From the IMG/VR virus record IMGVR_UViG_3300030090_004916, positions 1-23,317 of that record: 23,317 nucleotides of DNA, one strand, 5' to 3'. The notes under the pieces were generated by a model that saw nothing but the letters and a program-made list of their open reading frames with translations, was not told the origin of the DNA and did no database searches. This document shows positions 7,831 through 23,143 of the stretch, in pieces. The stretch's first letter is position 1. Each line of letters starts with the position of its first letter. The stretch comes from a virus. The translations under genes and the position numbers were made by a program.

Positions 7831-7864
7831 GGGATGATATCTCCGTAAGCTAAAAGGTTTATAA

Positions 7865-7883
7865 GTGACTTCGACTTAGTCAC
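7865..7883. repeat. Inverted repeat in the capsid gene leader
   Basis: GTGACT (7865-7870) and AGTCAC (7878-7883) form a perfect 6-bp inverted repeat with a 7-nt loop, 35 nt upstream of the capsid ATG in the divergent gap. It could be an operator or a 5' leader hairpin. No T-run follows on either strand, so it is not a classic terminator. Confidence 0.4.
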
Positions 7884-7944
7884 ATAATACGATAATACTG
7901 TTTATTATTGGTATTGTTGATACCTACCCCAAGATATTGTGGTT

Positions 7945-8322: not shown

Positions 8323-8339
8323 GTATTTAGTCAAATCCT

Positions 8340-8954: not shown

Positions 8955-9631
8955 GCTGGTGTAAGTTGTCTTTGAGTGTCTGTCATGTTGTAGAAACTTA
9001 AATATTCTCGACCAATATCTACTTCAACATTGTATGGCAGCCTTTTCGTGTTTCTTGCATGAAATCCTACATAAAAATGATCACTAGGTTTAATATAAAG
9101 AGTTTCTCCATCGAACTCTTCTTTGTTCTTGGTGTATATTCTTACATCGAACCAGTTGTCTACATACTTGTTTCCTGTTTTTAAATTTCTAAGATCTATA
9201 CGAATATACAAGTTTAAAATATCACTTAAACCATCTTTTGTTCCAGCGGTCACATAATCACCACTGGGATCACTTGTATCTACACTAAAATCTATATTTG
9301 CAGTTTCGTAATCATTAAGTGTGCCAAATTCTCTTGACACCCAAACAGGAGTGAAATTGTTTACTTGAATATCTAGGTTGGAAAATATTGATCCTTCACC
9401 TTGAATATCAAGTTTTATTTTGACAAATTTGTTCTCTGCCCCAAATAAACCTATTTTGTCTTCGTACTTAAATGTAAAAGGAATTGCAGTAATAACTTCC
9501 TCTGGGGCTGTATTAATGTTGATGCCCTGAGCAAAGTTGAGTGATTTTGTAGCGGAGTAATTATTTACATTGCTGCTACTATAGCCACCCAGCTTTAGAA
9601 TTTTATTTTCAATAGCTTGCGTTACGTCCAT
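8951..9631 (-). CDS. 226-aa predicted structural protein, beta-rich
   Basis: The start is taken at ATG 9629-9631; a GTG codon directly upstream is an alternative. After a short helical start and Ser/Asn-rich linker, residues 37-52 read ININTAPEEVITAIPF, which resembles the first helix of the HhH domain in the 5551-5982 gene. The rest is beta-rich (KFVKIKLDIQGEGSIF, LDIQVNNFTPVWVSREFG, LNLYIRIDLRNLKTG, YNVEVDIGREYLSFY). The alternating strands fit a virion surface or tail protein. It is 34 nt downstream of the sigma factor and shares the TTAA bases as stop codons with the convergent plus-strand gene. No family recognised. Confidence 0.65.
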   Translation of the reverse strand: MDVTQAIENKILKLGGYSSSNVNNYSATKSLNFAQGININTAPEEVITAIPFTFKYEDKIGLFGAENKFVKIKLDIQGEGSIFSNLDIQVNNFTPVWVSREFGTLNDYETANIDFSVDTSDPSGDYVTAGTKDGLSDILNLYIRIDLRNLKTGNKYVDNWFDVRIYTKNKEEFDGETLYIKPSDHFYVGFHARNTKRLPYNVEVDIGREYLSFYNMTDTQRQLTPA

Positions 9632-9665
9632 CACTTTTTAATCCGAGTCCTATGTTTATTGTAAA

Positions 9666-10607
9666 TTACAACAAACCATTTATCTCCTGACCTAACTCTC
9701 GCAGATTTCTAATTGCTTTTTGCTCTAATGTACGTACACGATCTCTGCTCATATTTAGTATTTGCCCGATTGCTGTCATAGACATAGGTTCAAGCACATC
9801 TTCACCAATTCCATATCTCATGCTGATTACTGCTGCTTGCATCTCTGGTAAGTCGCCAATCAGTTCCCTCACATCTTCTTTTATACAAGCACGCTCTAGA
9901 AGCATCTCTGGTAATTGAGTTTCGTCTTCAAGTAAATCAATCAATGCTGTATCTCGATTCTCCCCAATTTTTATTTCCAATGAGGTTGGCTGCCTAGCTT
10001 TGCACATCAGATCTTTTACAGCATCTGCCGTTAGTTCAAGCTCTTCTGCAAGCTCTGCTACGGTCGGCATGTAACCGTTAATTTGGCTTAATTCACGCTG
10101 AGCTTTCTTAAGGCGGTTGAGGTTTTCTGTAACATGAATCGGTAAGCGTATTGCCCTTGATTTCTCCGCAATGGCCCGCGTGATACCTTGCCGAATCCAC
10201 CAATAAGCATAAGTAGAGAACTTGTAGCCACGACCAGGATCAAACTTCTCCACACCACGAACCAAACCAATGGTGCCCTCCTGGATGATATCCAGTAATT
10301 CCATGTTCCGTTTAGTGTATTTCTTGGCGACTGAAACAACAAGCCTGAGATTAGCAGTGACCATTTTGTCTTTTGCCTTTGTGCCATCTCGCAGCTCACG
10401 TCGAAGCTCCTGTTTTGATAGTCCTAGAGAAACGGCCAATTCTTCTGTTGTCGGGTTTCCCAATAACTCTTCGCATGCTTTAATCTCCATCAGTCGTTGT
10501 ACTTTTCGACCTAACAAGATTTCCTCATCATGTTCTAGTAACGGGATTCTTCCAATATCACGCAGATATGCACGAACAGAATCACCGGAGATTTTTTGTT
10601 GCGGCAT
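9666..10607 (-). CDS. Phage-borne RNA polymerase sigma factor, cyanobacterial group 2 type
   Basis: The 313-aa protein carries all core regions of a primary-like sigma-70: region 1.2 (about 8-36, DSVRAYLRDIGRIPLLEHDE), region 2 (about 80-148) with NLRLVVSVAKKY, LDIIQEGTIGLVRGVEKFD and the -10-reading helix YAYWWIRQGITRAI (133-146), region 3 with RLPIHVTENLNRLKKAQREL, and region 4 (about 245-305) with the -35 helix-turn-helix MSMTAIGQILNMSRDRVRTLEQKA. It looks like the cyanobacterial group 2 class, not the T4 gp55 type. It sits inside the virion cluster behind its own promoter candidate. The expected role is to guide host RNA polymerase core to phage (late) promoters; loss of region 1.1 fits that class. 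The gene looks complete. Confidence 0.9.
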   Translation of the reverse strand: MPQQKISGDSVRAYLRDIGRIPLLEHDEEILLGRKVQRLMEIKACEELLGNPTTEELAVSLGLSKQELRRELRDGTKAKDKMVTANLRLVVSVAKKYTKRNMELLDIIQEGTIGLVRGVEKFDPGRGYKFSTYAYWWIRQGITRAIAEKSRAIRLPIHVTENLNRLKKAQRELSQINGYMPTVAELAEELELTADAVKDLMCKARQPTSLEIKIGENRDTALIDLLEDETQLPEMLLERACIKEDVRELIGDLPEMQAAVISMRYGIGEDVLEPMSMTAIGQILNMSRDRVRTLEQKAIRNLRELGQEINGLL

Positions 10608-10629
10608 ATGTTATCTTCACTGAAACCTT

Positions 10630-10659
10630 ATCATAGCACCTTGGTTATATTTAAGGCAA
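10630..10659 (-). promoter_or_regulatory. Extended -10 promoter candidate for the sigma gene
   Basis: On the minus strand TTGCCT (10654-10659) and TATGAT (10630-10635) are separated by 18 nt, with a TG one base before the -10 box. The start codon is 22 nt further on, so the leader is short. The -35 box overlaps the inverted repeat at 10651-10676. Confidence 0.55.
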
Positions 10660-10676
10660 CATAATATCTGCCTTAA
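10651..10676. repeat. Inverted repeat overlapping the sigma promoter
   Basis: TTAAGGCA (10651-10658) and TGCCTTAA (10669-10676) form a perfect 8-bp inverted repeat around a 10-nt loop. It overlaps the -35 box of the sigma gene promoter, so an operator role is plausible. It lies just past the stop of the upstream 96-aa gene, but no T-run follows, so termination is less likely. Confidence 0.5.
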
Positions 10677-10683
10677 TTAACAT

Positions 10684-10974
10684 CTAAACGCCGTAAATGC
10701 CAGCAAAGCGGATGCTTTCAATTGGGTTTTCTCCACTTTCCAAGCTTTCTACTGCCATAGCTTGGGCAGCATGTTCGTTGAATCCTCTTTCTTTGTAATT
10801 ACTAAGGTTGCGCTCATATTGCTCAATTGAACTTTCAAAATCTTCACCATGATGCAGCATCTCAGCAGTCATGTGATTTGCTGCTTGATCTTCCATTCCA
10901 TCAGTTTTTAGGTGTTTCCAAATAGTTTGGAATACTTCAGGTTCCGTTTGTGAAATGTCAGCAGCTTTACGCAC
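10684..10974 (-). CDS. 96-aa helical protein with internal duplication
   Basis: The product starts from GTG (10972-10974); a TAA stands four codons upstream, and no ATG is available before residue 26. It is acidic and helical. Residues 31-46 (AANHMTAEMLHHGEDF) and 69-84 (AAQAMAVESLESGENP) are an internal duplication of AAxxMxxExLxxGE, so the protein looks like two copies of a 38-residue helical unit. It lies between the 155-aa gene and the sigma gene in the same direction. I do not recognise a family; a small regulator or a virion component are both possible. Confidence 0.6.
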   Translation of the reverse strand: MRKAADISQTEPEVFQTIWKHLKTDGMEDQAANHMTAEMLHHGEDFESSIEQYERNLSNYKERGFNEHAAQAMAVESLESGENPIESIRFAGIYGV

Positions 10975-10984
10975 GGCACTATTT

Positions 10985-11009
10985 ATTTACTATTTAAATT
11001 GTAGTAAAT
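10985..11009. repeat. AT-rich inverted repeat before the 96-aa gene
   Basis: ATTTACTA (10985-10992) and TAGTAAAT (11002-11009) form a perfect 8-bp inverted repeat with a 9-nt loop, 10 nt upstream of the GTG start. Its AT content makes a stable RNA hairpin unlikely; a protein-binding site is the better reading. Confidence 0.35.
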
Positions 11010-11032
11010 TAGCCTAAATATTGATTTATTGT

Positions 11033-11500
11033 TTATGCCATAGCTTTGGCAATTGCATCGCTTGTTTGAATATTATTATAAAACCCTTCTCTGTCTGTTG
11101 TCATTCTTTCGTTCAATAATTCCATTTGGGTTGGTCTCTGTATTTTCCCTCCTTCAGCTTGGGCATACATAATATCAGATAATTTTAGGTTTAAATTTTG
11201 TTGAACGCGACTATCAATATCTGATTGTTTTACGATCGCAGTTCGTACTTGCCCCATTGCTCCTGCCGCAGCTTGAGGTCTTGCGCTTGCCATGTTTTGA
11301 TTAATATCCTGCATTTCATATTGATTCTGACGCTCTGCTTGCGCATTTAAAAAAGGATCAAGACGTCCATCATCCATATTTGTCATGCCAGGATTGGGTG
11401 GATTCATGCCTCCTTGTCCACGCTGCAATGCAGCATAAGGAAGTGCTTCTCTTGAATACTGCATGTTGCCTGCAGGCATATCAGAAATACGTTGAGCCAT
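11033..11500 (-). CDS. 155-aa Gln/Met/Asn-rich protein
   Basis: Residues 1-60 are disordered and rich in Gly, Pro, Asn and Met (MQYSREALPYAALQRGQGGM). Beyond about residue 75 the protein becomes more helical and polar (VRTAIVKQSDIDSRVQQNL, LKLSDIMYAQ, MELLNERM), with a short Ala-rich end. No domain is recognised. The gene follows the scaffold-like gene after a 64-nt gap that holds a strong hairpin. A head-assembly or internal virion role is a guess from position. Confidence 0.6.
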   Translation of the reverse strand: MAQRISDMPAGNMQYSREALPYAALQRGQGGMNPPNPGMTNMDDGRLDPFLNAQAERQNQYEMQDINQNMASARPQAAAGAMGQVRTAIVKQSDIDSRVQQNLNLKLSDIMYAQAEGGKIQRPTQMELLNERMTTDREGFYNNIQTSDAIAKAMA

Positions 11501-11529
11501 TTCAATACTTCAATCAATATTTATATTGT

Positions 11530-11553
11530 AGGGGATACAGAGTTGCATCCCCT
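11530..11553 (-). promoter_or_regulatory. Stable RNA hairpin between scaffold-like and 155-aa genes
   Basis: Minus-strand RNA forms a 10-bp stem (AGGGGATGCA with TGTATCCCCT, one G-U pair) closing a 4-nt loop, 11 nt after the scaffold-like stop. On the plus strand the same pair is an A-C mismatch, so the pairing favours a minus-strand RNA role. No T-run follows, so it may be an attenuator, processing site or 3' stabiliser rather than a full terminator. Confidence 0.55.
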
Positions 11554-11564
11554 TCTGAACTTAA

Positions 11565-12578
11565 TCAGCTATCTTGAACCAGCACTTTGGTGGTAAATGC
11601 CTGAGCAGGTGCACTGGCTAAATACTGCCATGCATTCTCAGGGTTGTTGTCCATCAGTGCGCTGAAATCACCCCAGAAACCACGGGCACCTTCACCGGAG
11701 CGCTGACCGGGGGTCGGCATTTCCATTTGAGGCCGTTGGAAGTTCTGAGGAACGCCGCGCTGCTCTTGAGCCTGAATCTCAGCTTCGAACTGAGCTGCAG
11801 CTTCTTGCTGTTGGCGGACCTGGGTTTCGTCAGCGGTTTCTGTCGGATAAGGGCCGCTAGGACCAAAGAAATCATTGACGTAATCGGCCAAGATGTCTGG
11901 ATTAGTCAGCATCAGATTCATCGCAGCACGCTCTTCACCAGCTGCTCCAAGCATCAAGTTCATGTCGTTATTACGACCGACCTGCTCAATCAGAGCATCT
12001 TCAACAGCGCAGGCATACTGATTCAGCAGTGCAGGAGCTTCAGCACCAAAGTGCTCCAGAACCTCAAGGCTGTTGTCAGAGATCTGACTTAAGTAGCTGT
12101 CACCCGCTGGGGCGGCGCTTGGCGCGGTTTGGGCCTGTGCGAGGGCCTGCAGCTGCTCTTGTGAATAAGTTGGGGTTGAAACTTGGGGACTGTAAGTCTG
12201 GGCTGCCTGGTATTGGGGCTGAGCCTGTGGCATTTGCGGTGCCTGTGAGGCCCAAGTTGCCTGGGTACTGGCCTGTGGGGTCGGTGTCTGATAAGCCGAG
12301 TACGACGCCTGGGCCGGGGACTGCTGCGGCGTATTCAGGCTTGCGCTCAGTGCCTGGAACGCCTGCTGCCATGGATTCCCCTCCGGTGCCGAAGCCTGCG
12401 GGGCCGCTGTTGGTTGGTAGGCCGGAACCTGGGGTTCCGCTACCTGCTGAACCTGAGCCGCCTGGTAAGCGGACGGGTCGCTCATCACGGGTTGGGAGAC
12501 CGATGTCGGCACGCTTGCGGTCGGCGTCGGAGAGCTTACTTGCGGCGTCGTCGCCACTGTTTGGTTGATACTTTCCAC
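11565..12578 (-). CDS. Scaffold-like Gln/Pro/Ala-rich head assembly protein
   Basis: The 337-aa protein starts at GTG 12576-12578, supported by a strong AAAGGAG ribosome site (12589-12595, 10-nt spacing). Residues 1-155 are extremely rich in Gln, Pro, Ala, Ser and Thr, with no hydrophobic core. Residues 160-337 carry helices (SLEVLEHFGAEAPALLNQY, VEDALIEQVG, RQQQEAAAQFEAEIQAQEQ) and a compact end (FWGDFSALMDNNPENAWQYL). Flexible N-terminus, coiled middle and location right after the portal gene match scaffolding proteins, though order here puts the capsid gene about 4 kb further on. Its first 479 nt overlap the end of the portal gene in another frame. Codon use is G/C-rich at third positions. 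Confidence 0.75.
   Translation of the reverse strand: MESINQTVATTPQVSSPTPTASVPTSVSQPVMSDPSAYQAAQVQQVAEPQVPAYQPTAAPQASAPEGNPWQQAFQALSASLNTPQQSPAQASYSAYQTPTPQASTQATWASQAPQMPQAQPQYQAAQTYSPQVSTPTYSQEQLQALAQAQTAPSAAPAGDSYLSQISDNSLEVLEHFGAEAPALLNQYACAVEDALIEQVGRNNDMNLMLGAAGEERAAMNLMLTNPDILADYVNDFFGPSGPYPTETADETQVRQQQEAAAQFEAEIQAQEQRGVPQNFQRPQMEMPTPGQRSGEGARGFWGDFSALMDNNPENAWQYLASAPAQAFTTKVLVQDS
12100..12578 (-). other. 479-nt dual-coding overlap of portal tail and scaffold start
   Basis: Two minus-strand frames are open across the whole interval: the portal frame down to TGA at 12100 and the scaffold-like frame from GTG 12578. The portal frame gives a Gly/Ser/Pro/Thr-rich tail (GGSGSAGSGTPGSG near its start), and the other gives the Pro/Gln/Ala-rich N-terminus. 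The scaffold start has a strong ribosome site inside portal coding sequence. The composition makes stop codons rare in all frames, so absence of stops alone does not prove that the portal tail is kept by selection. Confidence 0.7.
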
Positions 12579-14334
12579 TGTAACTTAACTCCTTTCTTAA
12601 GAATTCGAGAGATCTATATAGGAACCCTGTAATGTCAAGATTGGGATCTGACGCTAAGGGCATATTGGGCATCTGTGGGTGCGGTAGCTGATACAGCTGA
12701 CCCAGCATTCCCACAAATGTATTGAACGATTGTTGTGACTGCTGAACCATGCGGAACGGATAACCCGTTAACATTGCCGCACGTTCTTCGTCAGTCTTAG
12801 ATGGGAACAGGTACTTAAGTGCTTCAATCGAATCAACACCTAATTCCTGTAAGTTGCGAACAACAATACTATTGTTAAGAATGCCTTGTGAATCCTCTTC
12901 AAAGATTTCACCAGTCCAACGCCAGCTAACTTTTGTGCTGCCGTCTGGGATAAGACCAACTACACCTTTCGGGATATCACCTGCCTCAATACTAGCACTA
13001 AACAGTTGATCACGACTTTCTTCGAATGTAGCTAACTTCTCTTTATAATCAGCATCAGCTAATGCATATCCTTCTGGATTACCTTCAAATTCTTCAGGCA
13101 GTGGGATACTTGGTTTTTCTAACCCCATTGCTTGAGCAAACGATTCCATGAATAGGTATTCTTCATGCTGAATCATCATTGCAAACAGTTGGCATAGACC
13201 ATATTTGAAAAGTGCTTTCGCTTTCTTTTCTGCAGTAGCTGCCACTCTTCCGTAGAGAGATTTCATCTCATACGCTGTAGAAGCTGTTCCAATATCAATA
13301 TCGTCAACACCTCCTAATGCAAGCCTAATCTCAGAACGATATTGCTTCACATACAAATTCTGATCTCCGCTAACCGCATCAGGTGTCATGTAACTAACGC
13401 GATCAGTCGGCTCAAGATTGGCAATAACACGAGGGACCTTGATCTGTCCGTCTAGAGGGGATGCTCCACCAAAGGGTTGGCTCACTCTTGTAGAGGGCCT
13501 ATCCATTGCATAGAAGCCAGCCTGAGAGCTGATTGTGGGTCTGAAGGATGAATCCCCGTCAGACTCAACAATGTCGTGTTTTGGCCTACTAGAGACTAAA
13601 GTTGGATTTCCAAAGAACCTCATGTTCTTTCGGACATTCCTTACAAGCTCATCGTGGAACAAGATCTGATGTGCTAACCAATCAAACTCACCAGTACCTG
13701 TTGCTTCTCCTGTGCAGTCCAAATGATTAAAGACTTCAACTGCGGGAATAAAACCTAAACTGTTGACTAATACTTCTGTCTGTCCCGGTTGGGTTAGGTT
13801 GGGCATTCCAATGTCGTTTTCAAAATCAATCTTTTCATTACTGATTGTTTGCTCGATCCGATCTTTGTAGACACGCAGCTTGATGTACTTTTTCTTTCCT
13901 CCACGTTTACCCTGTTCAGAGAATGGATTTGCAAGATTGGTCTCTTTGACAGCAAACGAATACACTAAAACAACATTGTCAATTTCACCAGTTTGGTTGC
14001 GATAGCATCTATAGCTATCTTTTGGGAAATACAACATTTGATAGGTTTCCCCGTTAGGCCTGAAATAAAACAGACCTTGACCGTCACACAAGAAATAATC
14101 AACAATACTTTCTAACTTCATCTCCATCATGTTTTCTTCAAACACGTTGGCTATGAATTCTCTACGCCCTCCATACGAATCTTGTTCGCAGTAAAACTCT
14201 ACGCCACGCCGTAAGATAAATAGCCGCATCTGTGCAAGATGCGACGATACAATCATTGTGTCAATTGTAAGATCACCACGCCGCTCTTTAGCTGCATGGA
14301 TAATCTCTTCAAACTGATTACTTGGATTATTCAT
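12100..14334 (-). CDS. Portal protein with long disordered C-terminal tail
   Basis: The 744-aa product shows a portal-like body over about residues 1-580: an N-terminal helical segment, a beta-rich wing (VDYFLCDGQGLFYFRP, YQMLYFPKDSYRCY), then EVFNHLDCTGEATGTGEFD, LVRNVRKNMRFFGNPTLVSS, a stem-like stretch around VKQYRSEIRLALGG, and the clip/crown part with STAYEMKSLYGRV. Phages use such dodecameric rings as the DNA gate of the head, where TerL docks. The last 150 or so residues are a Gly/Pro/Ser-rich tail, coded over the scaffold-like gene. Start ATG 14332-14334 follows the 786-aa gene by 30 nt with the decamer CGTTAGACTT in the gap and no clear ribosome site. Confidence 0.87.
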   Translation of the reverse strand: MNNPSNQFEEIIHAAKERRGDLTIDTMIVSSHLAQMRLFILRRGVEFYCEQDSYGGRREFIANVFEENMMEMKLESIVDYFLCDGQGLFYFRPNGETYQMLYFPKDSYRCYRNQTGEIDNVVLVYSFAVKETNLANPFSEQGKRGGKKKYIKLRVYKDRIEQTISNEKIDFENDIGMPNLTQPGQTEVLVNSLGFIPAVEVFNHLDCTGEATGTGEFDWLAHQILFHDELVRNVRKNMRFFGNPTLVSSRPKHDIVESDGDSSFRPTISSQAGFYAMDRPSTRVSQPFGGASPLDGQIKVPRVIANLEPTDRVSYMTPDAVSGDQNLYVKQYRSEIRLALGGVDDIDIGTASTAYEMKSLYGRVAATAEKKAKALFKYGLCQLFAMMIQHEEYLFMESFAQAMGLEKPSIPLPEEFEGNPEGYALADADYKEKLATFEESRDQLFSASIEAGDIPKGVVGLIPDGSTKVSWRWTGEIFEEDSQGILNNSIVVRNLQELGVDSIEALKYLFPSKTDEERAAMLTGYPFRMVQQSQQSFNTFVGMLGQLYQLPHPQMPNMPLASDPNLDITGFLYRSLEFLRKELSYSGKYQPNSGDDAASKLSDADRKRADIGLPTRDERPVRLPGGSGSAGSGTPGSGLPTNSGPAGFGTGGESMAAGVPGTERKPEYAAAVPGPGVVLGLSDTDPTGQYPGNLGLTGTANATGSAPIPGSPDLQSPSFNPNLFTRAAAGPRTGPNRAKRRPSG

Positions 14335-14353
14335 TTATTTACGGGCTTTTTTA

Positions 14354-14363
14354 AAGTCTAACG
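14354..14363 (-). promoter_or_regulatory. Shared decamer CGTTAGACTT before the portal gene
   Basis: The same ten bases occur at 18291-18300 before the terL gene. Here it ends 19 nt from the portal ATG; before terL the distance is 21 nt. I found no further copy by eye. It may be a regulatory or RNA element common to the two packaging genes. Confidence 0.35.
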
Positions 14364-14364
14364 A

Positions 14365-16725
14365 TTAGCTGTATCTTTTAGCAATTTCCTCGATGTTATT
14401 TGTAGGTGGCTTATACGGTTCAGGCATAACAAATGTTGGTGGCCTAAATGCATAGGTATCACCTAAATACCTATTCTGCTGATTAATCATCATGTTCTGG
14501 AAATATTGAGGCTGCATTGCTGCGTTATAACGTAACTGATTTGCACTTTCTCGTGCTCCTGTAGTCTGTTGAGCACGTGCTGAGGCTTGAGCTGCTCTGG
14601 TTGAACCACTGAATTGAGCTTGGGACTTAGCGAACGCATTATCATTTAAGGCACCCAGTGCTGCACCGCTAAACATATTATCCATCATGGGATTGTATGA
14701 ACCTGTTCCGGCACCACTTCCAGATCCTCCCACTTGATTGCCAGCATTGTTGTAACCGATAGTCACGCTGTAATCTGCACCTTGGTTATTATTTCCAATA
14801 AATGTGCCAGTATTATCAAAGATATTTGTCTGGTCTCCCATTGTTTTACCAACATTAGAATTCATATCACCACCAACAGCAACACTGCCAGTGCCAATTA
14901 CACGTGTATTCTGCGGAGCTTTTCTTAATCTTGGTGGAGCAATTCGATTTCTTGGTGGACGTTCTTTTTTCGGAGTTTTAGTTGGTGTTGTGCCAGGTGG
15001 CTGTACTGGCATTCCCACTATCGGCAGCCGATTTGGGAAATCGTACGTAAGCGCGGGATAGTCCTCGACCGCACGGACATCCGGACGAATGCCTTGGGGA
15101 GGGATTGCACGCGTGTCCCCTGGTAACGGCTGAACGCCTTGCGATCCAAAATTTAACTGCTCTTCAGTAGGTGCAAATGGATCGATTTCACCATATCCTC
15201 GACCAATTGGATTCATGTTTGAGTCCAGTTGTGTCGGCTGACCCATCATTGGATTGGCTTCACGCATTTGAGTTTCTGCCCAGTCATCCATACCTAATTC
15301 ACCACCACCAGTTTTATATTCCGCAAATCTGTTGTTTTTATTTTGTTCGCGCAGATGGCTTGACCACTCCTCATCTGTTGATGGCTCTAAACCAACAACG
15401 GAACGTAATTGATCAAATGCTGAACGTGTTGTACCGCCAGCAGCTCGCATATCATTAACGGCATTTGTCACACTTGGACCTGATTGCTGTGGTCCACTTG
15501 TGGTGTTTTTAAAGTAATCCTCGTTTAATGCAACGCCACCGTCATTGTGAGTATATGTTTCTCCAGTTTCCGGATTTGTAATGGTTTTCAATGCTTGTGT
15601 CACTGCCATGCCGTCTCCGCTTGGTTTCACCCAATCAGGCATAGATCCATCTCTGTAGCTATAGGCTTTTGGCCCTTCATTAGGTTGCTCCGTAGCAGTT
15701 AATCCAGGGTTTTTAGCATTAAATTTCACGTTTGGCCGTTGCTGAGCATTCATCATGCTTGCAACTGATTGATTACTGTTATTTACATTGCCAGCAGTGT
15801 TAGAGCCTGTTGTAGTGCTGTAATCAGCTCCTTGATTATTGTTCCCAATAAATGTTCCAGTGTTACTAAAGGTGTTAGTTTGATCTCCCATCACCTTCCC
15901 AACATTTTGATTAAGATCACCGCCAACAACAAAGTCACCAGTTCCTTTGTAAACAGATGTAGATCCTCCACCGTTAGCTGAACTTCCAGTTTCAGTTGTA
16001 TCTGAACCTCCCATATTAATTACATTGCCACCACGTTGGCTATTATCAATTGTTTGAGAGTTGTCCGTGACAGTAGTGTTAATATCTCCAGTTGGAACAG
16101 GCTGAGGAGTTGCAGTTGGCTTGGTGTTAATGACTGGCGAACCATCTCCTGCATCTGTTACATCTGTAGCAGGCTGCTGTGTCATTGCATTTAATCGTTC
16201 ATTTAAAAATGACTGTGCATTAGTACCGAAACTGTAGTTATTCTTTTTTGCCCAATCATTAATATCTCCAGCACTGAAATTACTATCTTTTAGTAAAAAC
16301 TTTACTTCTGATTTGCTAAGATCTGCGCGTTCGGTTCCATCTTCTTTGGGAGCTGTTCTTCCCATAGAACCAACATCATAGTCGTCTAAACTTGCAGGTT
16401 TTGAGGCAGCACCGTGAATACCAAACTTTCGCTGAACAGATGCTTTTACATTTCCAACACCAGCACGTTCTGCAACACTTTTAATTTGAGCTTGAGAGAA
16501 TCCCTGCTCCTCCATCTTTCTTACATCTTTGCTTCCAACAGTTTTCCCAAAATTATAATTATCTGCTTGCTGCTGATTTTGATATGACTGTGCAATAGCC
16601 TTGGCACTACTAGCGTCTCCACCTGATTTTGCTACTTGTTTTTTGGCGGCTTTAAACGCTTTTTTATCTCCACCATATGCTTGTTTTTCTTTATCAGATA
16701 ATTCAGACCACTTTGCCCTAGCCAT
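14365..16725 (-). CDS. 786-aa Gly/Asn/Thr-rich virion protein with duplicated module
   Basis: Residues 1-110 are basic and helical (WSELSDKEKQAYGGDKKAFK, then VRKMEEQGFSQAQIKSVAER). From about 190 onward the protein is low-complexity, rich in Gly, Asn, Thr, Gln and Pro. Two 52-residue copies of a module with VGGD.N.NVGK.MGDQTN.F.NTGTFIGNNNQGADYS occur at 262-313 and 612-663. A C-terminal segment (about 700-786) is Ala/Gln-rich helical then Pro-rich. It starts 5 nt after the terL stop and precedes the portal. The module suggests a beta-solenoid or surface repeat; a head or tail accessory protein is likely, but no family is recognised. The stretch about 15000-15130 is richer in G/C. Confidence 0.7.
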   Translation of the reverse strand: MARAKWSELSDKEKQAYGGDKKAFKAAKKQVAKSGGDASSAKAIAQSYQNQQQADNYNFGKTVGSKDVRKMEEQGFSQAQIKSVAERAGVGNVKASVQRKFGIHGAASKPASLDDYDVGSMGRTAPKEDGTERADLSKSEVKFLLKDSNFSAGDINDWAKKNNYSFGTNAQSFLNERLNAMTQQPATDVTDAGDGSPVINTKPTATPQPVPTGDINTTVTDNSQTIDNSQRGGNVINMGGSDTTETGSSANGGGSTSVYKGTGDFVVGGDLNQNVGKVMGDQTNTFSNTGTFIGNNNQGADYSTTTGSNTAGNVNNSNQSVASMMNAQQRPNVKFNAKNPGLTATEQPNEGPKAYSYRDGSMPDWVKPSGDGMAVTQALKTITNPETGETYTHNDGGVALNEDYFKNTTSGPQQSGPSVTNAVNDMRAAGGTTRSAFDQLRSVVGLEPSTDEEWSSHLREQNKNNRFAEYKTGGGELGMDDWAETQMREANPMMGQPTQLDSNMNPIGRGYGEIDPFAPTEEQLNFGSQGVQPLPGDTRAIPPQGIRPDVRAVEDYPALTYDFPNRLPIVGMPVQPPGTTPTKTPKKERPPRNRIAPPRLRKAPQNTRVIGTGSVAVGGDMNSNVGKTMGDQTNIFDNTGTFIGNNNQGADYSVTIGYNNAGNQVGGSGSGAGTGSYNPMMDNMFSGAALGALNDNAFAKSQAQFSGSTRAAQASARAQQTTGARESANQLRYNAAMQPQYFQNMMINQQNRYLGDTYAFRPPTFVMPEPYKPPTNNIEEIAKRYS
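14737..14892 (-). repeat. Second copy of the 52-codon module in the 786-aa gene
   Basis: This 156-nt stretch encodes residues 612-663 and matches 15787-15942 over its full length without an indel. The protein copies keep NVGK.MGDQTN and NTGTFIGNNNQGADYS, while the DNA differs at many third positions, so the duplication is old or maintained by protein selection. Confidence 0.85.
15787..15942 (-). repeat. First copy of the 52-codon module in the 786-aa gene
   Basis: This encodes residues 262-313 and pairs with 14737-14892. It begins TGDFVVGGDLNQNVGK and ends with the NNQGADYSTTTGSNTAGN segment. Confidence 0.85.
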
Positions 16726-16730
16726 TTCAA

Positions 16731-18269
16731 TTACAAATCAAAACTATCTTCATTGTAGTCTAATTGTAAACTACCCCTCCTCAACAACCCGCCTATAGTT
16801 AGCACCATAGAATCCACTGCATCATCGTGTTGTGAATGTCCAAAGTTTATCAATTCTTCTTCTAAAATATTCCATGTTCGCCACTTGTTCCAAATAACTT
16901 TTTTATGTTCAAAAAGACCAAGCACTCCTCGTAGTCTTGCTAATTTATCTCCTTTAAATCCTTTTACTGGAGAGCATTGTAAATTATATAGCGCTCTATC
17001 TTCAAACATTATACGTTTAAAATCTCCTTCAAATGATGATTGATACGCAACTGCTTCAGGCCATATTACACATGGCGACATAGTTGGGAAAAACTGTTTC
17101 TCATCATTTTCAATCAGTATATTCCAGTCACCTAGCATTTCACACAAGGTGTCCATTTTTTCTATATTACCCATTGATCTACATCGTCTCTGGTCAATAA
17201 GATATATTTTTCCGTCTTTAATGCCACCAAGTGTAAATACAGTCCAGTCGTTCTTTTCTGATAATCCTGCGCTTAAGTCAATGCCTACACCGAGGCAATC
17301 GTATTCTTCAGGTACTTCGCCTTTAATAAGCAGCTCTGGTGATATACCTACTTCAGTTGATTGGACAGCTGTGTTTAAGTACTGATATGCAAAAGCAACT
17401 CTATCCTCAAGCTTGCGTTCGTTCAAGTATTTCATTGACCAGAACTCAGGCCAGTATGAGCGCTGGCGTCCGTCAGCATCTGTGATGACTGCTTTTTGAA
17501 TTATTTGTTTCCAATTATTTTTGGGTACAAAGAGGGTCGCGTGAATATCGTCAAAGTGGAAGCGGGTTCCCAGACAGATAGCCCGTGCACCTTGGAACAT
17601 CGTTGGTGCGATAACGTTAGACCACGTCTGCTCCATCTCACGGCGAATGTCTGGGTTGTTGATCGAAGCGGCAGATTTAATAGGGTCATCAATAAGCACC
17701 AGCTGTGATCGTTTAGAGGTGATTGCACCCTTGAGACCACCGCACGCAATTGTAAAAGCTTCCTCACCTGCTGTATCAATACCCGCAAATTCATAATCAA
17801 TTGACCAATATTCATCCGAACGCTTTATTTTACTTAATCGGACCATCGGAAAAATTTCTCGATATTTAGGGCTTGTCAGTATTCCTTTGATAGTTGCTGA
17901 CTTTGCTCTACTAATATCAACCATGTACGCGATGTACAGAATACGCAGCATTTGCTTGGCAGCTGCATGTCGGCCTATCATCCAAGCTGCAAACATACCA
18001 AGGACAGTACTTTTGGCAGATCCTCTGGGAGCCAGAATAGATGTGTTTGTTCCTGCTATTCCTAGTAGACATTCGCTATCTTCTCCTGTACATAATTGCA
18101 TATGCCATTCCAGCATGTGTTTTGCTGGAGGCTTTCCCATTGCAGTGCAGAAAGCTATGAAGTTATCTCTTGCTGCTAATACTTCCTGTGATGGTGGTTT
18201 TGTTGTTACTTTTGTAGCAGTCATTAGTGCACTGCGTCGATAAGCCAATGCTGCACTTGGGATTGCCAT
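16731..18269 (-). CDS. terL: Terminase large subunit
   Basis: The 512-aa protein has both terminase parts. The ATPase half shows a Walker A motif APRGSAKST (80-88), a Walker B LVLIDDP (190-196, with D194-D195) and the coupling motif GTRFHFDD (234-241). The nuclease half (RNase H-like) shows D331 in GIDLSAG, E387 in LIENDE and D482/D483/D486 in HDDAVDSM, the usual acidic cluster for metal binding. It would dock on the portal, pump DNA into the head and cut the concatemer. The gene follows the 90-aa gene after 32 nt, a gap carrying the decamer also found before the portal gene. All key residues are present; the protein looks intact and of usual length. Confidence 0.95.
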   Translation of the reverse strand: MAIPSAALAYRRSALMTATKVTTKPPSQEVLAARDNFIAFCTAMGKPPAKHMLEWHMQLCTGEDSECLLGIAGTNTSILAPRGSAKSTVLGMFAAWMIGRHAAAKQMLRILYIAYMVDISRAKSATIKGILTSPKYREIFPMVRLSKIKRSDEYWSIDYEFAGIDTAGEEAFTIACGGLKGAITSKRSQLVLIDDPIKSAASINNPDIRREMEQTWSNVIAPTMFQGARAICLGTRFHFDDIHATLFVPKNNWKQIIQKAVITDADGRQRSYWPEFWSMKYLNERKLEDRVAFAYQYLNTAVQSTEVGISPELLIKGEVPEEYDCLGVGIDLSAGLSEKNDWTVFTLGGIKDGKIYLIDQRRCRSMGNIEKMDTLCEMLGDWNILIENDEKQFFPTMSPCVIWPEAVAYQSSFEGDFKRIMFEDRALYNLQCSPVKGFKGDKLARLRGVLGLFEHKKVIWNKWRTWNILEEELINFGHSQHDDAVDSMVLTIGGLLRRGSLQLDYNEDSFDL

Positions 18270-18290
18270 ATTAATCTTACATAGTGATCT

Positions 18291-18300
18291 AAGTCTAACG
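18291..18300 (-). promoter_or_regulatory. Shared decamer CGTTAGACTT before terL
   Basis: Identical to 14354-14363. It ends 21 nt before the terL ATG and starts within 2 nt of the upstream stop codon. Confidence 0.35.
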
Positions 18301-18301
18301 T

Positions 18302-18574
18302 TTAGATTTTGCCCTCAGCCCATCGCTGTGCATATCTTTCTTCTTCACGCGAACGAGCCCGCATTCTTGCATTCTGTATGCGAGTAATTTCAAATGCAAT
18401 TCTCATTGCCTCAGCCAGACGTCTTGCTTCCAATGCTCGTGGATCATATCCAAACAACGACACCACATTTAAATCAGGCATTTGTGGTAAGCGTTTAATC
18501 AATGAACCAGTTAACCGCAAAGCTCTGGTGCTATGGCTTTGAATTTCAGGTAGTTCGGGAAGTTCGGGAAGCAT
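18302..18574 (-). CDS. 90-aa basic helical protein upstream of terL
   Basis: The product starts with a repeated Leu-Pro-Glu phrase (MLPELPELPEIQ), coded by a 9-bp tandem repeat near 18552-18569. Next come a basic segment (LRLTGSLIKRLPQMP), a hydrophobic stretch (LNVVSLFGYDPRALEARRLAE) and a strongly basic, arginine-rich C-terminal helix (RIQNARMRARSREEERYAQRW). The ATG overlaps the TAA of the candidate small-terminase gene by one base, so the two genes are probably coupled. Position between TerS-like and TerL genes suggests a role in packaging; no family recognised. Confidence 0.6.
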   Translation of the reverse strand: MLPELPELPEIQSHSTRALRLTGSLIKRLPQMPDLNVVSLFGYDPRALEARRLAEAMRIAFEITRIQNARMRARSREEERYAQRWAEGKI

Positions 18575-19110
18575 TAGCTGTTACTGATTTCACTATAAAT
18601 TTTTGCCCATGCTGCATTTATAGCATTTTCGATGGGCTCAGCAAACTGTGGATCATCCTTGAAAATATTGGTAAGTTCTCTCATCACTCGATCAGCACCG
18701 GCAAGGATTAGACCACGTTTATCAGTGCTTTTATTCATACGATCCGAAGTTTCAATATGCGCTCGAAGTTCCTTTTCAAGAGCTGCCAGACGCGCACAAC
18801 CATTATCTCCTTTGACTTCGCCTGAGGTAATCGCCATTCTAAGTTCTTGTATATCGGAGTGTAGAGCAGCAATTTCGCTATTAAGTATTTCACGGCGATT
18901 TAATTTCCGATACTTCATTTTTACCCATCTAGATAAATCTACGAATGAGCCTTCATAACCTACTATTCCAGCATATACCCAGATTTCAATGATAGAAGGA
19001 GTAGCTTCGGCAAACTCTCTAAAGTCCTCACTTTCAGCTGCTGAAATAGTATCTAACCATTGATCGACAACGGTTAGATAAACCTTACTTGTTTTAGATG
19101 CAGTAGTCAT
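18574..19110 (-). CDS. Possible terminase small subunit
   Basis: This 178-aa protein sits just ahead of the packaging genes. Residues about 38-65 (PSIIEIWVYAGIVGYEGSFVD and following) could be a small helix-turn-helix. Residues about 70-125 form heptad-patterned helices (REILNSEIAALHSDIQELRM, then LAALEKELRAHIETSDRM) of a type that would oligomerise. The C-terminal part is helical (ADRVMRELTNIFKDDPQFAE). DNA-binding front, coiled coil middle and location upstream of terL match the small-terminase plan, which recognises phage DNA and regulates TerL. Family sequence similarity is not obvious, so it remains a candidate. Its ATG overlaps the stop of the repeat-protein gene by one base. Confidence 0.6.
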   Translation of the reverse strand: MTTASKTSKVYLTVVDQWLDTISAAESEDFREFAEATPSIIEIWVYAGIVGYEGSFVDLSRWVKMKYRKLNRREILNSEIAALHSDIQELRMAITSGEVKGDNGCARLAALEKELRAHIETSDRMNKSTDKRGLILAGADRVMRELTNIFKDDPQFAEPIENAINAAWAKIYSEISNS

Positions 19111-21377
19111 CAGAACATACCTGCCAAACTACGAGCAAATTTACTTTGATTCCTTCGATCAGTCATTAGGTTCTTCTGTGCGTTGTCTTGTGATAATCTC
19201 TCTTGTTCACCTGTCGCTCCGATCTTCTTGACATCGACGTCCCCTTGAGCACCAATGCTTGCCAAATCTTGCTCTCCTTTTAGTGTTTGTAATGCTTTAT
19301 CAATAGAACCCTGTGACTCAATTTTGCCGATATCCACTTCACCTTGCTTACCGATCTTGCTGATGTCTACATCACCTTGAGCAGTAATCTGTTCTTTCGC
19401 CTGAGCCCCCTTCGTTTCTTGAAGTTTCTGATCAATATCACCCTGTGCGCCTATCTTCAATAGATCCTGAGCGCCTTGCCCTTCAATCTGAGCTAAAGCC
19501 TGTTCACCCTTCAGCCCCTGCATTTTTTCATCTAAGAAACCCTGTGCTTCAATCTGCTTCAGTGCTTCTGCACCTTGCCCACTGATCTGCTCCAGTGCTT
19601 GCTTGCCCTTCTCAGTCTTTAGCCATTTATCAATGCCTCCTTGTTCTTGGATCTGCTTGATAGCCCCAGAGTCACGCAGCTCCTGAAGAGTTTGGTCGTT
19701 GACACCTGTCTGCTTCAGTTGATCTAGAGCTTGCTCTCCTTTAATTCCTTGAATTTTCTCTTCAACAAATCCCTGAGCTTGAATCTTGGTTACATCTACT
19801 TCACCTTGACCAGCAATCTGCTTCAGTGCTTCCGCACCTTGGCCACCAATCTGTTCTAATGCTTGCTGACCTTTTTCAGTTTGGAGCCATTTATCAACGC
19901 CACCTTGTGCGTCAATTTGCTCAACTGCTCCTGTGTTCCTCAATGTTTGCAGTGTTTGCTCATTAACACCAGCCTGCTCTAGTTGCTGTAAAGCTTGAGA
20001 ACCTTTTGTTGTTTGCAGCTCTTTCTCGATTTCACCTTGTGCTTTGATTTTGTCTACATCAATACTCCCTTGAGCACCAATTTGAGCTAAAGCTTGTTGA
20101 CCTTTTTCTGACAACAGCGCAGCTTCAATGTCACCTTGAGCAGTAATTTGATCTAATGCACCTGTTTGTCTTAATTGCTCAATCTGCTGGTCATTTAGAC
20201 CAGATTCTTTGAGTTGAGCAAGAGCCTGTTCGCCTTTAATATTTTGAAGCGCCTCCTCAACCACACCTTGAGCACCAATCTGCTCCATGGCTTGCTCGCC
20301 TTGTTTAGATTTAAGCCATTTATCAATTCCACCTTGTGCATCAATTTGAGTTACCGCGCCTTGATCACGTAATGCTTGCAGCTGCTGATCATTTAAACCA
20401 GACTCTTTTAGCTGCTCTAGAGCTTGTTCGCCTTTAGTAGTTTGCAGTGCTCGATCAGCTGCAATTTGAGTTTCCAGCTGAGTTTGTTGTTGAGCACCTT
20501 TTAGTGTCTGAAGATTTTGATCAAGCAAACCTTGTGCTTGAATTTTAGATATGTCAACAGTTCCCTGACCTTCAATTTGCTTTAATGCTTGTTTCCCTCT
20601 TTCAGAAATTAATAATTCTTCTACACCACCTTGCTCTAGAATTTGACGAACAGCTCCATCATCCCGAAGACTCTGTAACTGTTGATCATTCAGGCCAGCT
20701 TGCTTCAGCTGTTGCATTGCTTGCTCGCCTTTAGTGTCTAATAGCTGAGCCTCTACTTGCCCCTGTGCAGTAATTTGATTTAAAGCTTCTTGGCCGCTTG
20801 CACTGATTTGCTGCAGAGCTTGCTTACCTTTCTCAGTCTGCATCCACTTTTCAACATCACCTTGTGCAGTGATCTGGTCAATTGCTCCTGAGTTACGAAG
20901 GTTCTGAATATCTGTCTCATTCATCCCTTGCTGACGAAGCTGGGCAATAGCCTGCTCTCCAGTTTGTTTTTGAAGGTTGCCTTGAATATTGCCTTCATGA
21001 GTCAATTTGTTTAAATCACGATTTGCTTGATCAACCGCAAACTTGCCTTGTAGATCAAACTCTTCGCCCATCTTGGCCATGGTGTAATCAAACTCATCGG
21101 CCATGATGGTTTGTTGGTTTGACAACTCCAGATTGGCTGCATTAAGCATTGCTTGAGAAGCAATAGCCTGATTGGTGTAGGCCAAATCCTTTGTATTTTC
21201 TGTGTCAAATGCCTGCTTCACCATATCAGTCATGAACGTATTCTTCAGGGCCTGTCCAGCAGCATCGTCCTCTCCAGGCTGCCAAGACAAGAACTGATTC
21301 ATGATGCTTTGGAAGTTAAACAATCCTTGCCCAGTATTATTATTGTTTTGTGGAGCTTGAGGTGAAGAGCTAGTCAT
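19110..21377 (-). CDS. 755-aa hendecad-repeat rod protein, probable internal virion or length-setting protein
   Basis: The first 93 residues are Gln/Asn-rich with a helical part. From about residue 138 to 720 the protein is 53 consecutive 11-residue units with no insertion or deletion, consensus roughly AQG-x-hydrophobic-D-x-x-(I/L)-x with Gly at position 3 and Leu/Ile/Val at 5, 9 or 10. The weaker start (94-137) and end (721-731) keep the same register. Eleven-residue periods give right-handed or straight helical bundles, so a rod of about 870 A is possible if fully helical. The C-terminus is basic (DRRNQSKFARSLAGMF). Neighbours are a lysozyme-like protein and a charged helical protein, as in DNA injection modules. 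It might act as an ejection protein, a tape-measure-like ruler or a tail-rod; none is proven. Confidence 0.75.
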   Translation of the reverse strand: MTSSSPQAPQNNNNTGQGLFNFQSIMNQFLSWQPGEDDAAGQALKNTFMTDMVKQAFDTENTKDLAYTNQAIASQAMLNAANLELSNQQTIMADEFDYTMAKMGEEFDLQGKFAVDQANRDLNKLTHEGNIQGNLQKQTGEQAIAQLRQQGMNETDIQNLRNSGAIDQITAQGDVEKWMQTEKGKQALQQISASGQEALNQITAQGQVEAQLLDTKGEQAMQQLKQAGLNDQQLQSLRDDGAVRQILEQGGVEELLISERGKQALKQIEGQGTVDISKIQAQGLLDQNLQTLKGAQQQTQLETQIAADRALQTTKGEQALEQLKESGLNDQQLQALRDQGAVTQIDAQGGIDKWLKSKQGEQAMEQIGAQGVVEEALQNIKGEQALAQLKESGLNDQQIEQLRQTGALDQITAQGDIEAALLSEKGQQALAQIGAQGSIDVDKIKAQGEIEKELQTTKGSQALQQLEQAGVNEQTLQTLRNTGAVEQIDAQGGVDKWLQTEKGQQALEQIGGQGAEALKQIAGQGEVDVTKIQAQGFVEEKIQGIKGEQALDQLKQTGVNDQTLQELRDSGAIKQIQEQGGIDKWLKTEKGKQALEQISGQGAEALKQIEAQGFLDEKMQGLKGEQALAQIEGQGAQDLLKIGAQGDIDQKLQETKGAQAKEQITAQGDVDISKIGKQGEVDIGKIESQGSIDKALQTLKGEQDLASIGAQGDVDVKKIGATGEQERLSQDNAQKNLMTDRRNQSKFARSLAGMF
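19218..20966 (-). repeat. 53 tandem 11-residue (33-nt) repeats
   Basis: Residues 138-720 of the protein above make 53 exact 11-mers, for example AQGDVDISKIG, KQGEVDIGKIE, SQGSIDKALQT and LKGEQDLASIG. A second, longer order shows: the phrase GLNDQQLQ or a close variant recurs at units 2, 9, 18, 24, 31 and 39, each followed by LR-x-x-GA and AQGGIDKW. The DNA copies have diverged at silent sites, so this is not a recent slippage product. Confidence 0.9.
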
Positions 21378-21392
21378 TTACTTCTATTGTTT

Positions 21393-21422
21393 TTGCCTTT
21401 ATTCATTCTACAAAGATACAAT
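21393..21422 (+). promoter_or_regulatory. Promoter candidate for the lysozyme-like gene
   Basis: TTGCCT (21393-21398) and TACAAT (21417-21422) are separated by 18 nt, with the ATG 24 nt past the -10 box. The -35 box is the same as at the sigma gene. The -10 box overlaps the inverted repeat at 21416-21430. Confidence 0.45.
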
Positions 21423-21430
21423 GGTTGTAT
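21416..21430. repeat. Inverted repeat in the divergent gap
   Basis: ATACAA (21416-21421) and TTGTAT (21425-21430) surround a 3-nt spacer in the gap between the repeat-protein gene and the plus-strand gene. It overlaps the promoter candidate and could be an operator, or part of a hairpin. Confidence 0.35.
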
Positions 21431-21445
21431 TAATAGTGCTTACAT

Positions 21446-22444
21446 ATGACTTTCCGTTCTTCAGCAAGATCTAACGTAAATCGTTATATCCAGGCAGGGA
21501 ATGCTGCTGCTAGTGCAGGTGTAGAAATTAGCGGGGGTATTGCTGCTAATCGTCCTCGTTTTGACAAGATTGAAGATGCTCGAATGCAGGTTCATGCGGA
21601 TCTCTTCGAAGCTGCTATTGATGCTGATGCAAAGGTTGCAAAAGCTGGAATGTCAATTAAAGCTGCACGCGAGCAGAGAAAAGCCAAGGAAAAAGCTGAG
21701 AAGAAAATTAGAGCATCTAACAAGTCAGCTGCAATGGCAGGTAAATTAGCTGCAGGTGCTCAGGCAATTGGCCTCAGCCAATATGTAAGGAATCAGAAGC
21801 AAGAGGAAAATCCATTATTAGACCTTTATCAGCAACAACTTAATAAGACTGGCTCTAAATTAGAAGACGTGATGGCAAAACTAGATGCATTGAATTCAGG
21901 ACAAAAAACTGAAGGTACTAATCCCTCTTCATCTATTGATGAGTCTTCTCCTTCAACTTCTTCTACTAACTCATATGGAGGCCTTACTGGTGTCTCAAAA
22001 ACTATTGCTGATGCAGTAGCAAAGCCTGAATCTGGAGGATACGGTTACGAAGCTTTTAATCAAGGTGGCGCTGCCGGTGGAACAAAAGTCGTAGGTAAGT
22101 CTGGCAACTACTCAGACACCTATGGCTCATCTTTGACTGATATGACTTTGTCAGAAATTTTTCATAAACAAAATACTAAACAACGTGGTTTAAGTATGCA
22201 AGAACATTTAGATCAGGGCGGCTTGCATGCGGTTGGAAGATATCAATTTATTGGACCAACTTTGCAAGAAGAAGTTCGGCTTATGGGAATAGACCCTGAA
22301 ACAACTAAATTTACTCCTGAAATTCAAGATAAGATATTCTTGAATCATATTAAACGTGTCGGTAATGTTAGCCCTTGGGTCGGTACTCAAAATTACAGTC
22401 AAACTGAAAGAGATAGGCTTAACAACTTAATTTCTCAACTTTAA
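21446..22444 (+). CDS. Virion-associated lysozyme-like (transglycosylase-fold) protein
   Basis: The first 150 residues are an Ala/Lys-rich helical part (ADLFEAAIDADAKVAKAG, then KAAREQRKAKEKAEKKIRA) and a helix with DLYQQQLNKTGSKLEDVMAKL. A Ser/Thr-rich linker follows (159-178). From residue 186 the sequence matches the lysozyme-like superfamily: KPESGGYGYEAFN holds the candidate catalytic glutamate E195, MTLSEIFHKQ follows, then LHAVGRYQFIGPTL (260-273) and PEIQDKIFLNHI. Family knowledge says such domains cut peptidoglycan, locally at DNA entry if virion-bound. There is no signal peptide, so an export partner or virion location is needed. It is the only structural-type gene in this part on the plus strand, and ends flush against the convergent neighbour. 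Confidence 0.82.
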   Translation: MTFRSSARSNVNRYIQAGNAAASAGVEISGGIAANRPRFDKIEDARMQVHADLFEAAIDADAKVAKAGMSIKAAREQRKAKEKAEKKIRASNKSAAMAGKLAAGAQAIGLSQYVRNQKQEENPLLDLYQQQLNKTGSKLEDVMAKLDALNSGQKTEGTNPSSSIDESSPSTSSTNSYGGLTGVSKTIADAVAKPESGGYGYEAFNQGGAAGGTKVVGKSGNYSDTYGSSLTDMTLSEIFHKQNTKQRGLSMQEHLDQGGLHAVGRYQFIGPTLQEEVRLMGIDPETTKFTPEIQDKIFLNHIKRVGNVSPWVGTQNYSQTERDRLNNLISQL

Positions 22445-23143
22445 TTAAACTGTCATACCAGCGAAGGCTTCGCCAAGGTTGCCTAAGCCTGACATCAAAA
22501 TTGCAATTGCTTTGTCTTTACGATCTTGAGCTAACCGAGCATCTGCTCGCATAGCCTCAGCTTTTTGGAACATCAGTTGATCTCTTTTGAATTCGAGATT
22601 ATCTGCTCGCTCTTGATAGTACCTACGATCATTTTCTCTTTCACGTGCTATACGATCTTCACGCTCAGTGTTATAGCGTTGTTCTGCTTCTCTCTTCGTG
22701 TCAGCTTCTTTCTTTTCAGTTTTTTCAGTAAGCAATCTTGATGCCAATGCTTCGATTTCACCTGGATCGGTTAATTCGAGAAATTTACCTCGATCCAAAC
22801 CTGTTAAAGCAGCTGCTTTACTTCTGGCACCTTTAGTTGCCCTCCTATCAGTAATGGCAGTTTTAATCTGCCGCTCAGTTAATTTGGATAAATCACCAAT
22901 ATCCTCATAACCTCTTATTCCACGCAGTTTATCTACATCACTGCCATATACGTCTCTTTTCTTTTGCCTATCTAGCTCTTGTGTTTTTTCTCCAACTTCT
23001 TTAGCGTAATTAGTTCCTGTAAGGAACGACATCACACGATCACCTATGCGATCGCCAGTATCTCTTTTGCGTCCTTTCCTTACATCATATTCTTCATTTT
23101 CTGCAATTTGTTCAGGTGTTAGTCCAAGTGCTTCTAATAACAT
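22445..23143 (-). CDS. 232-aa charged helical protein, probable internal virion protein
   Basis: The product starts MLLEALGLTPEQIAENEEY, continues with a basic segment (RKGRKRDTGDRIGDRVMSFL), a hydrophilic middle, and from about residue 135 to 215 an uninterrupted charged helix (KTEKKEADTKREAEQRYNTE, then EDRIARERENDRRYYQERA) typical of coiled coils. It ends AIAILMSGLGNLGEAFAGMTV, a small hydrophobic tail that could contact membrane or partner. Its ATG overlaps the upstream stop by one base. Location and charge suggest an internal or ejection component. No family recognised. Confidence 0.65.
   Translation of the reverse strand: MLLEALGLTPEQIAENEEYDVRKGRKRDTGDRIGDRVMSFLTGTNYAKEVGEKTQELDRQKKRDVYGSDVDKLRGIRGYEDIGDLSKLTERQIKTAITDRRATKGARSKAAALTGLDRGKFLELTDPGEIEALASRLLTEKTEKKEADTKREAEQRYNTEREDRIARERENDRRYYQERADNLEFKRDQLMFQKAEAMRADARLAQDRKDKAIAILMSGLGNLGEAFAGMTV

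Follow-up and report, generated by a model that had tools for sequence, protein, structure and literature searches.

The H protein of phage phiX174 contains glutamine-rich hendecads, QKELTKMQLDN among others (PMC7354561), and our literature search on hendecads in phage ejection returned work on phiX174 only. The ejection sets of podoviruses combine a peptidoglycan hydrolase with a small membrane protein and with large helical proteins that vary greatly in size (PMC8954989). In these sets, the size of gp15 ranges from 431 to 982 aa, and gp16 requires the basic residues at its C-terminus (PMC8954989). The phage studied here belongs to the lineage of Synechococcus phage S-EIV1 (KJ410740), which is listed among the Podoviridae (PMC9382816). 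Phages of the S-EIV1 type abound in aquatic systems, but for most of their structural proteins no role has been assigned.

Here we describe a repeat protein from a marine virus record of 23.3 kb (the whole stretch is referred to as the window). The large terminase (TerL) of this virus is 55% identical to that of S-EIV1, and the order of the structural genes follows that of S-EIV1.

Results

Phage lineage and gene context

Close relatives of the window phage are plentiful in IMG/VR. Each TerL scan yielded 228 candidates, from which 80 were kept. Judging from S-EIV1, the host is probably cyanobacterial. Three metagenome-bin contigs found in the contig scan were assigned to unrelated bacteria; we judged these to be misbinned phage and of no use for assigning a host. 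The features of the locus are listed in Table 1.

Table 1. Coordinates of the repeat-protein gene, its parts and the neighbouring genes in the window.
Feature	Position	Strand	Basis
Portal-like virion structural protein	12100..14334	-	phrog_20475, E 9e-180; portal role suggested by size and position
Large terminase subunit	16731..18269	-	PHROG 38, E 1e-65; 55% identity to S-EIV1
178-aa protein, probable small terminase (TerS)	18574..19110	-	homologous to the S-EIV1 ORF before TerL
Repeat protein gene, 755 aa	19110..21377	-	ORF and 75 relatives at the same position before TerL, always on the same strand
N-terminal conserved domain, residues 1-137	20967..21377	-	alignment of 36 sequences; AlphaFold2
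Continuous array of 11-residue units, residues 118-733 (56 according to the profile)	19179..21026	-	unit profile and dynamic-programming segmentation
GLNDQQLQ-type 44-aa module 1, residues 140-183	20829..20960	-	pattern; module profile
GLNDQQLQ-type module 2, residues 217-260	20598..20729	-	pattern; helix broken here in AlphaFold2 model
GLNDQQLQ-type module 3, residues 316-359	20301..20432	-	pattern; AlphaFold2 model
GLNDQQLQ-type module 4, residues 382-425	20103..20234	-	pattern; AlphaFold2 model
GLNDQQLQ-type module 5, residues 459-502	19872..20003	-	pattern; AlphaFold2 model
GLNDQQLQ-type module 6, residues 547-590	19608..19739	-	pattern; AlphaFold2 model
Conserved 22-aa basic C-terminal tail, last residue Phe	19113..19178	-	comparison of homologues
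Divergently oriented partner gene; N-terminal segment conserved up to about 21814, C-terminal hydrolase-type domain exchangeable	21446..22444	+	swap compared with L002; Pfam in homologues
Helical protein of 232 aa belonging to the same module, C-terminus hydrophobic	22445..23143	-	homologues in 12 of 53 loci (simple phmmer)

Several other genes of this lineage were noted. A full primary-type sigma-70 factor with regions 1.2, 2, 3 and 4 is encoded inside the structural gene cluster (9666-10607, minus strand), and a 786-aa protein (14365-16725, minus strand) without Pfam or PHROG match carries two copies of the motif GGDxNxNVGKxMGDQTNxFxNTGTFIGNNNQGADYS. An ORF of 337 aa rich in Pro and Gln (11565-12578, minus strand), whose product is a scaffold candidate, shares 479 nt with the 3′ end of the portal gene but is read in a different frame. 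Inside this overlap lies the motif GNPWQxAF, with 87 matches across loci, some of them from overlapping loci of one contig; its counterpart in S-EIV1 is GNPWESAF. The recurrence of the motif in the loci and in S-EIV1 suggests that the overlap is truly dual coding. In S-EIV1 itself, the large terminase (24081-26621) has 846 aa compared to 512 in the window, with an apparent intein-like insertion, and its gene contains an out-of-frame ORF of 319 aa with HNH-like sequence.

An unbroken 11-residue register

The first-pass annotation had divided residues 138-720 of the repeat protein (19218-20966) into 53 units of 11 residues without a single indel, which was borne out. Glycine occupies position 3 in 46 of the 53 units, as described there, and the 583 repeat residues contain no Pro, Cys, His or Tyr. 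The register was also proposed to extend beyond both ends, and indeed runs unbroken from residue 118 to 733, leaving the 22-aa tail, when an iteratively trained unit profile is read on the protein of the relative L002, a near-identical copy of the window protein. In an autocorrelation of the window array, lags at multiples of 11 gave identities of 0.21-0.32, the highest at 77, 88 and 44, compared to a maximum of 0.157 over all lags in 300 composition-matched shuffles. The identity at lag 22 (0.27) was higher than that at lag 11 (less than 0.2). The proposed 11-residue period holds as a register, but a length of 22 residues, made up of two unit types of opposite face, is the more apt description of the basic repeat.

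The recurrence of GLNDQQLQ-type units at intervals of six to nine units was found as well: these units start at residues 151, 228, 327, 393, 470 and 558, at spacings of 7, 9, 6, 7 and 8 units. Pairwise comparison of the six 44-aa modules gave a pS of 0.57-0.98 and a pN of 0.18-0.35, and dS was saturated for most pairs. Silent sites have thus changed while the protein was kept, and such a low pN at saturated or nearly saturated silent sites between paralogous modules indicates that the amino-acid pattern is selected. The best DNA match of a window unit to another unit averages 70%, which indicates that the array is old in the window.

Helix geometry and alternating faces

AlphaFold2 predicted helices throughout the window protein and no strand; its model of L049, a homologue of 249 aa, is a helix with hardly any interruption (mean pLDDT 68.6, mostly 70-84). 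The N-terminal domain is predicted to form a short helix followed by a single long helix. In the window model (pLDDT about 75-86 in the better parts), long helices of 45-67 residues are interrupted by short helices at all six GLNDQQLQ modules; it is a model of a single chain with an overall pTM of 0.24 and therefore does not fix the relative placement of the helices.

The hydrophobic power at 3.67 residues, the single stripe of a hendecad coiled coil, was 0.8 in the window array, which is noise level, whereas homologue L003 reached 19.6 and does have the stripe. The window array instead consists of two unit classes, with the consensus GxQALxQIxAQ and GxIDKxLQxLK, whose hydrophobic faces point in opposite directions, at 180 degrees (polar R 0.25; axial R 0.77 compared to a null maximum of 0.35). 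The face switches at 41 of 53 junctions, compared to a mean of 25.6 in shuffled arrays, and none of 5000 shuffles reached as high a number. This two-faced dyad of 22 residues is also present in L030, L027, L029 and L023 but was not seen in L018, L021 and L067, and is thus a clade-specific elaboration. Because the 3.67-residue signal is absent, the faces alternate and the helix is broken at each GLNDQQLQ module, the single straight rod of about 870 Å that had been proposed is not supported. Together with the compact 44-residue modules, the dyad suggests that the array packs laterally through both of its faces or is built of articulated segments, rather than forming one simple coiled coil.

Length variation among homologues

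Searching with a profile of the N-terminal domain, we found 75 distinct homologues, all on the strand of TerL and mostly 820-1035 nt before it; in 75 of 75 related sequences the gene precedes TerS/TerL. The start is intact in 69 homologues, which range from 177 to 1160 aa. Common to the homologues are an N-terminal helical domain of about 115 aa and the basic C-terminal tail, which starts exactly 22 residues before the end in 61 of the 75 and has Phe as last residue in 57 of the 69. Between these conserved ends, the number of units varies from about 3 to 89. Where the register shows short breaks that are not divisible by 11, 60 of 106 equal +4 modulo 11. In a few homologues, for instance L008, L035 and L055, the unit profile fails to recognise long stretches, so that the statement on the register is strong for most members, not for all.

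Among relatives with TerL at least 97% identical, 21 of 34 non-zero length differences, measured from the N-domain anchor to the C-terminus, were exact multiples of 11 (chance expectation one eleventh; the pairs are not independent). L003, L004, L005 and L007, for example, differ by 99, 176 or 275 residues at a TerL identity of 98.6-99.6%, although near-identical repeats may collapse in short-read assemblies; this concern is smaller for the differences between L027 and L029 and between L023 and L039, where the units concerned have diverged. Tandem duplications of 297 nt in L030 (9 units, 87% matches) and of 66 nt in L003 (2 units, 90-96% matches) show how units are gained.

Freely varying indels had been named by the first-pass annotation as evidence against its reading. 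The outcome is mixed: the unit number does vary freely, but in steps of whole units. A fixed size fitted to a tail or channel, as had been suggested, is unlikely, since up to 275 residues change between phages with about 99% identical TerL, and such fast changes disfavour fixed-length functions. The proposed selection on helical geometry, on the other hand, is supported by the lack of proline, by a register kept across about 3-89 units with breaks that are mostly +4, and by the conservation of units despite silent saturation. The helical phase is under selection; the total length is not.

A divergent hydrolase gene next to the repeat gene

In the loci that could be examined, the gene directly upstream of the repeat gene is transcribed divergently and encodes about 290-450 aa; in most cases it lies 58-101 nt away. 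Its C-terminal domain matches different Pfam families: SLT_3/SLT in L155, L002, L003 and L063, M23 in L033 and Phage_lysozyme2 in L043. In several relatives, the window included, this domain had no Pfam match; that of the window (GRYQFIG...) was judged lysozyme-like by eye. Over 6731-21814, the window shares 99.64% identity with L002; inside the partner gene, after its residue 123, the two diverge, and their hydrolase domains differ completely. This divergence next to 15 kb of such identity indicates that the hydrolase domain was exchanged (21814-22440 in the window). Further upstream of the partner gene, small proteins with hydrophobic Gly/Ala-rich stretches are encoded. With a hydrolase-type neighbour and virion-type genes, the neighbourhood is a virion or DNA-entry module, which agrees with the virion cluster initially proposed. 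Its composition is that of an ejection module, and it shares with podoviral ejection genes the presence of a peptidoglycan hydrolase gene among those of the virion.

Two small proteins of locus L155 are worth mentioning. One, upstream of the module (L155:19352-19963, minus strand), carries a Peptidase_S74 endosialidase chaperone domain (E 2e-17) and is not a long fibre. The other, a neighbour of 174 aa (L155:18831-19355, minus strand), ends in ALRGGMF, which closely resembles the ARGLAGMF of the repeat protein; the two C-termini may have a docking or packaging signal in common.

Comparison with protein databases

When homologue L003 was compared to phage records, all 13 matches were Microviridae DNA pilot/VP2 proteins (best E 7e-6). 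A control with reversed L003 (579 of 601 residues) gave one weak VP2 match (E 0.8), so part of the pilot similarity is due to composition. The window protein had no phage match even at E 10, and four further homologues had none among the phage records. No described family matched the repeat protein in PHROGs, Pfam or PDB profile comparisons, including the PHROG and Pfam families that would support an ejection function through homology to a known ejection family. The N-terminal membrane segment of pilot proteins was likewise not found, as the window protein contains no strong transmembrane segment (maximum 19-residue hydropathy 0.44). The N-domain profile found nothing in the PDB at E 10, and Foldseek returned nothing below E 0.001 for the window model against the PDB or for the L049 model against BFVD.

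Three groups of apparent matches were rejected. The whole-protein score of 31.9 for the AbiEi_4 antitoxin (PF13338) is a sum of weak repeats in which no single stretch passes, and a single module has no match. Matches to HHH_6, HlyD_D4 and similar Pfam families are repeat-inflated sums as well, without any single stretch above the cut-off. Finally, PDB matches of the module profile to armadillo designs (E 1e-4) comprise five stretches of about 6 bits each and reflect local mimicry of NEQIQKLIEAGAL, not homology.

Discussion

About half of our confidence goes to the reading that the repeat protein is a virion protein acting in the manner of ejection or DNA-pilot proteins. The analysis shows the repeat and its register, the variation in length, the selection, the gene neighbourhood and the swap of domains, and from these the location in the virion, ejection, oligomerisation and role in a conduit are inferred. 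The protein consists of a conserved N-terminal helical domain and a conserved basic C-terminal tail, with a helical array of 11-residue units between them. Inside the virion, it would be stored in the head and then leave with the DNA and, together with the exchangeable peptidoglycan hydrolase and small membrane-active proteins, it would help to form or brace a transient conduit across the host envelope. Units are duplicated and lost whole, so that the length drifts quickly while the helical phase is kept. The all-helical prediction and the strict register fit this reading. Independent hints are the pilot-protein matches of L003, weakened by the reversed control and by the lack of matches for the window protein and four other homologues, and the glutamine-rich hendecads of phiX174 H. 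The gene for a wall-cutting enzyme that adjoins the repeat gene suggests such a role in carrying viral DNA through the host envelope, whereas a range of about 3-89 units fits poorly with a conduit whose length is strictly defined. We also considered, as a distinctly doubtful extension, that the two-faced 22-residue repeat represents a new extendable helical tube or lattice for DNA entry, with a plug-in wall hydrolase and a length that is adjusted as whole units are added or removed, perhaps to match the thickness of the host envelope.

Fast copy-number variation of this kind is typical of surface-exposed shafts, and the conserved N-terminal domain could serve as an anchor for an external helical fibre, whisker or head decoration, fixed at one end and with a freely varying shaft length. 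We consider this unlikely: the distal end would be merely a 22-aa helix without receptor-binding or chaperone domain, and tail-fibre and S74 genes are found elsewhere in the cluster of the relative G002. We give the same low weight to a protein of the head interior (part of the core, a DNA organiser or a scaffold-like filler) that forms no conduit and in which the unit number is near-neutral as long as the helix phase is kept. The drift in length between near-identical phages would fit, and the basic tail could bind the shell or portal, but the 337-aa ORF between the portal and capsid genes is a better scaffold candidate, and the adjoining hydrolase gene suggests a role in entry.

Helical 11/3 repeats are also a hallmark of lipid-binding and LEA proteins. 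A non-virion protein, such as a host-takeover protein or a membrane-binding 11-mer of the apolipoprotein/LEA type, that merely adjoins the terminase genes is nevertheless improbable, given the same position and strand before TerS/TerL in 75 of 75 related sequences and the flanking virion-type genes. Least probable is that the protein sets the length of a long tail as its tape-measure or ruler. A long helical protein within the virion cluster would suit this function, but S-EIV1 is listed as a podovirus (PMC9382816), the length differs by up to 275 residues at 99% TerL identity, and neither a tape measure nor a tail tube was among the 25 families listed of the 69 matched PHROG families.

The fixed phase and the range of about 3-89 units constitute a natural experiment, which separates what is selected (phase and ends) from what is not (length). 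If the repeat protein is an ejection protein, the genome-delivery apparatus of these phages tolerates or even exploits large changes in length, and the exchangeable hydrolase next door would provide a direct link to the type of host wall.

Comparison with known systems

Like phiX174 H and the VP2 proteins of Microviridae, the repeat protein has Q-rich helical repeats of 11 residues, and among phage records L003 matches pilot proteins exclusively. In contrast, phiX174 H has three hendecads followed by heptads and forms a fixed tube of 170 Å, while the protein described here has about 3-89 units, which are two-faced in the clade of the window. Moreover, the window phage is a dsDNA portal phage, and no homology to Microviridae pilots was detected for the window protein. 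With ejection proteins of the T7/P22 type (gp14/15/16; gp7/16/20) it shares the helical fold, the variable size, the occurrence in a set with a peptidoglycan hydrolase and the basic C-terminus. Sequence homology to these was not found, the size range among the homologues of the repeat protein is far larger, and 11-residue arrays are not described in PMC8954989.

S-EIV1 belongs to the same lineage and has a homologous order of structural genes downstream, but at the corresponding place it carries a gene of 292 aa without repeat array. There is no sequence-detectable homologue in S-EIV1; the similarity, seen by eye, is a short Gly-phased stretch near the C-terminus of the 292-aa product. With hendecad (11/3) right-handed coiled coils, the helical repeat protein has in common the unbroken 11-residue register, and its +4 breaks fit the helix phase. 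The window array differs from these in lacking the 3.67-residue hydrophobic stripe and in its alternation of opposite faces. Helical entry proteins are thus a known kind, whereas the phase-locked but length-free architecture and the two-faced dyad appear, as far as our sequence tools show, to be new.
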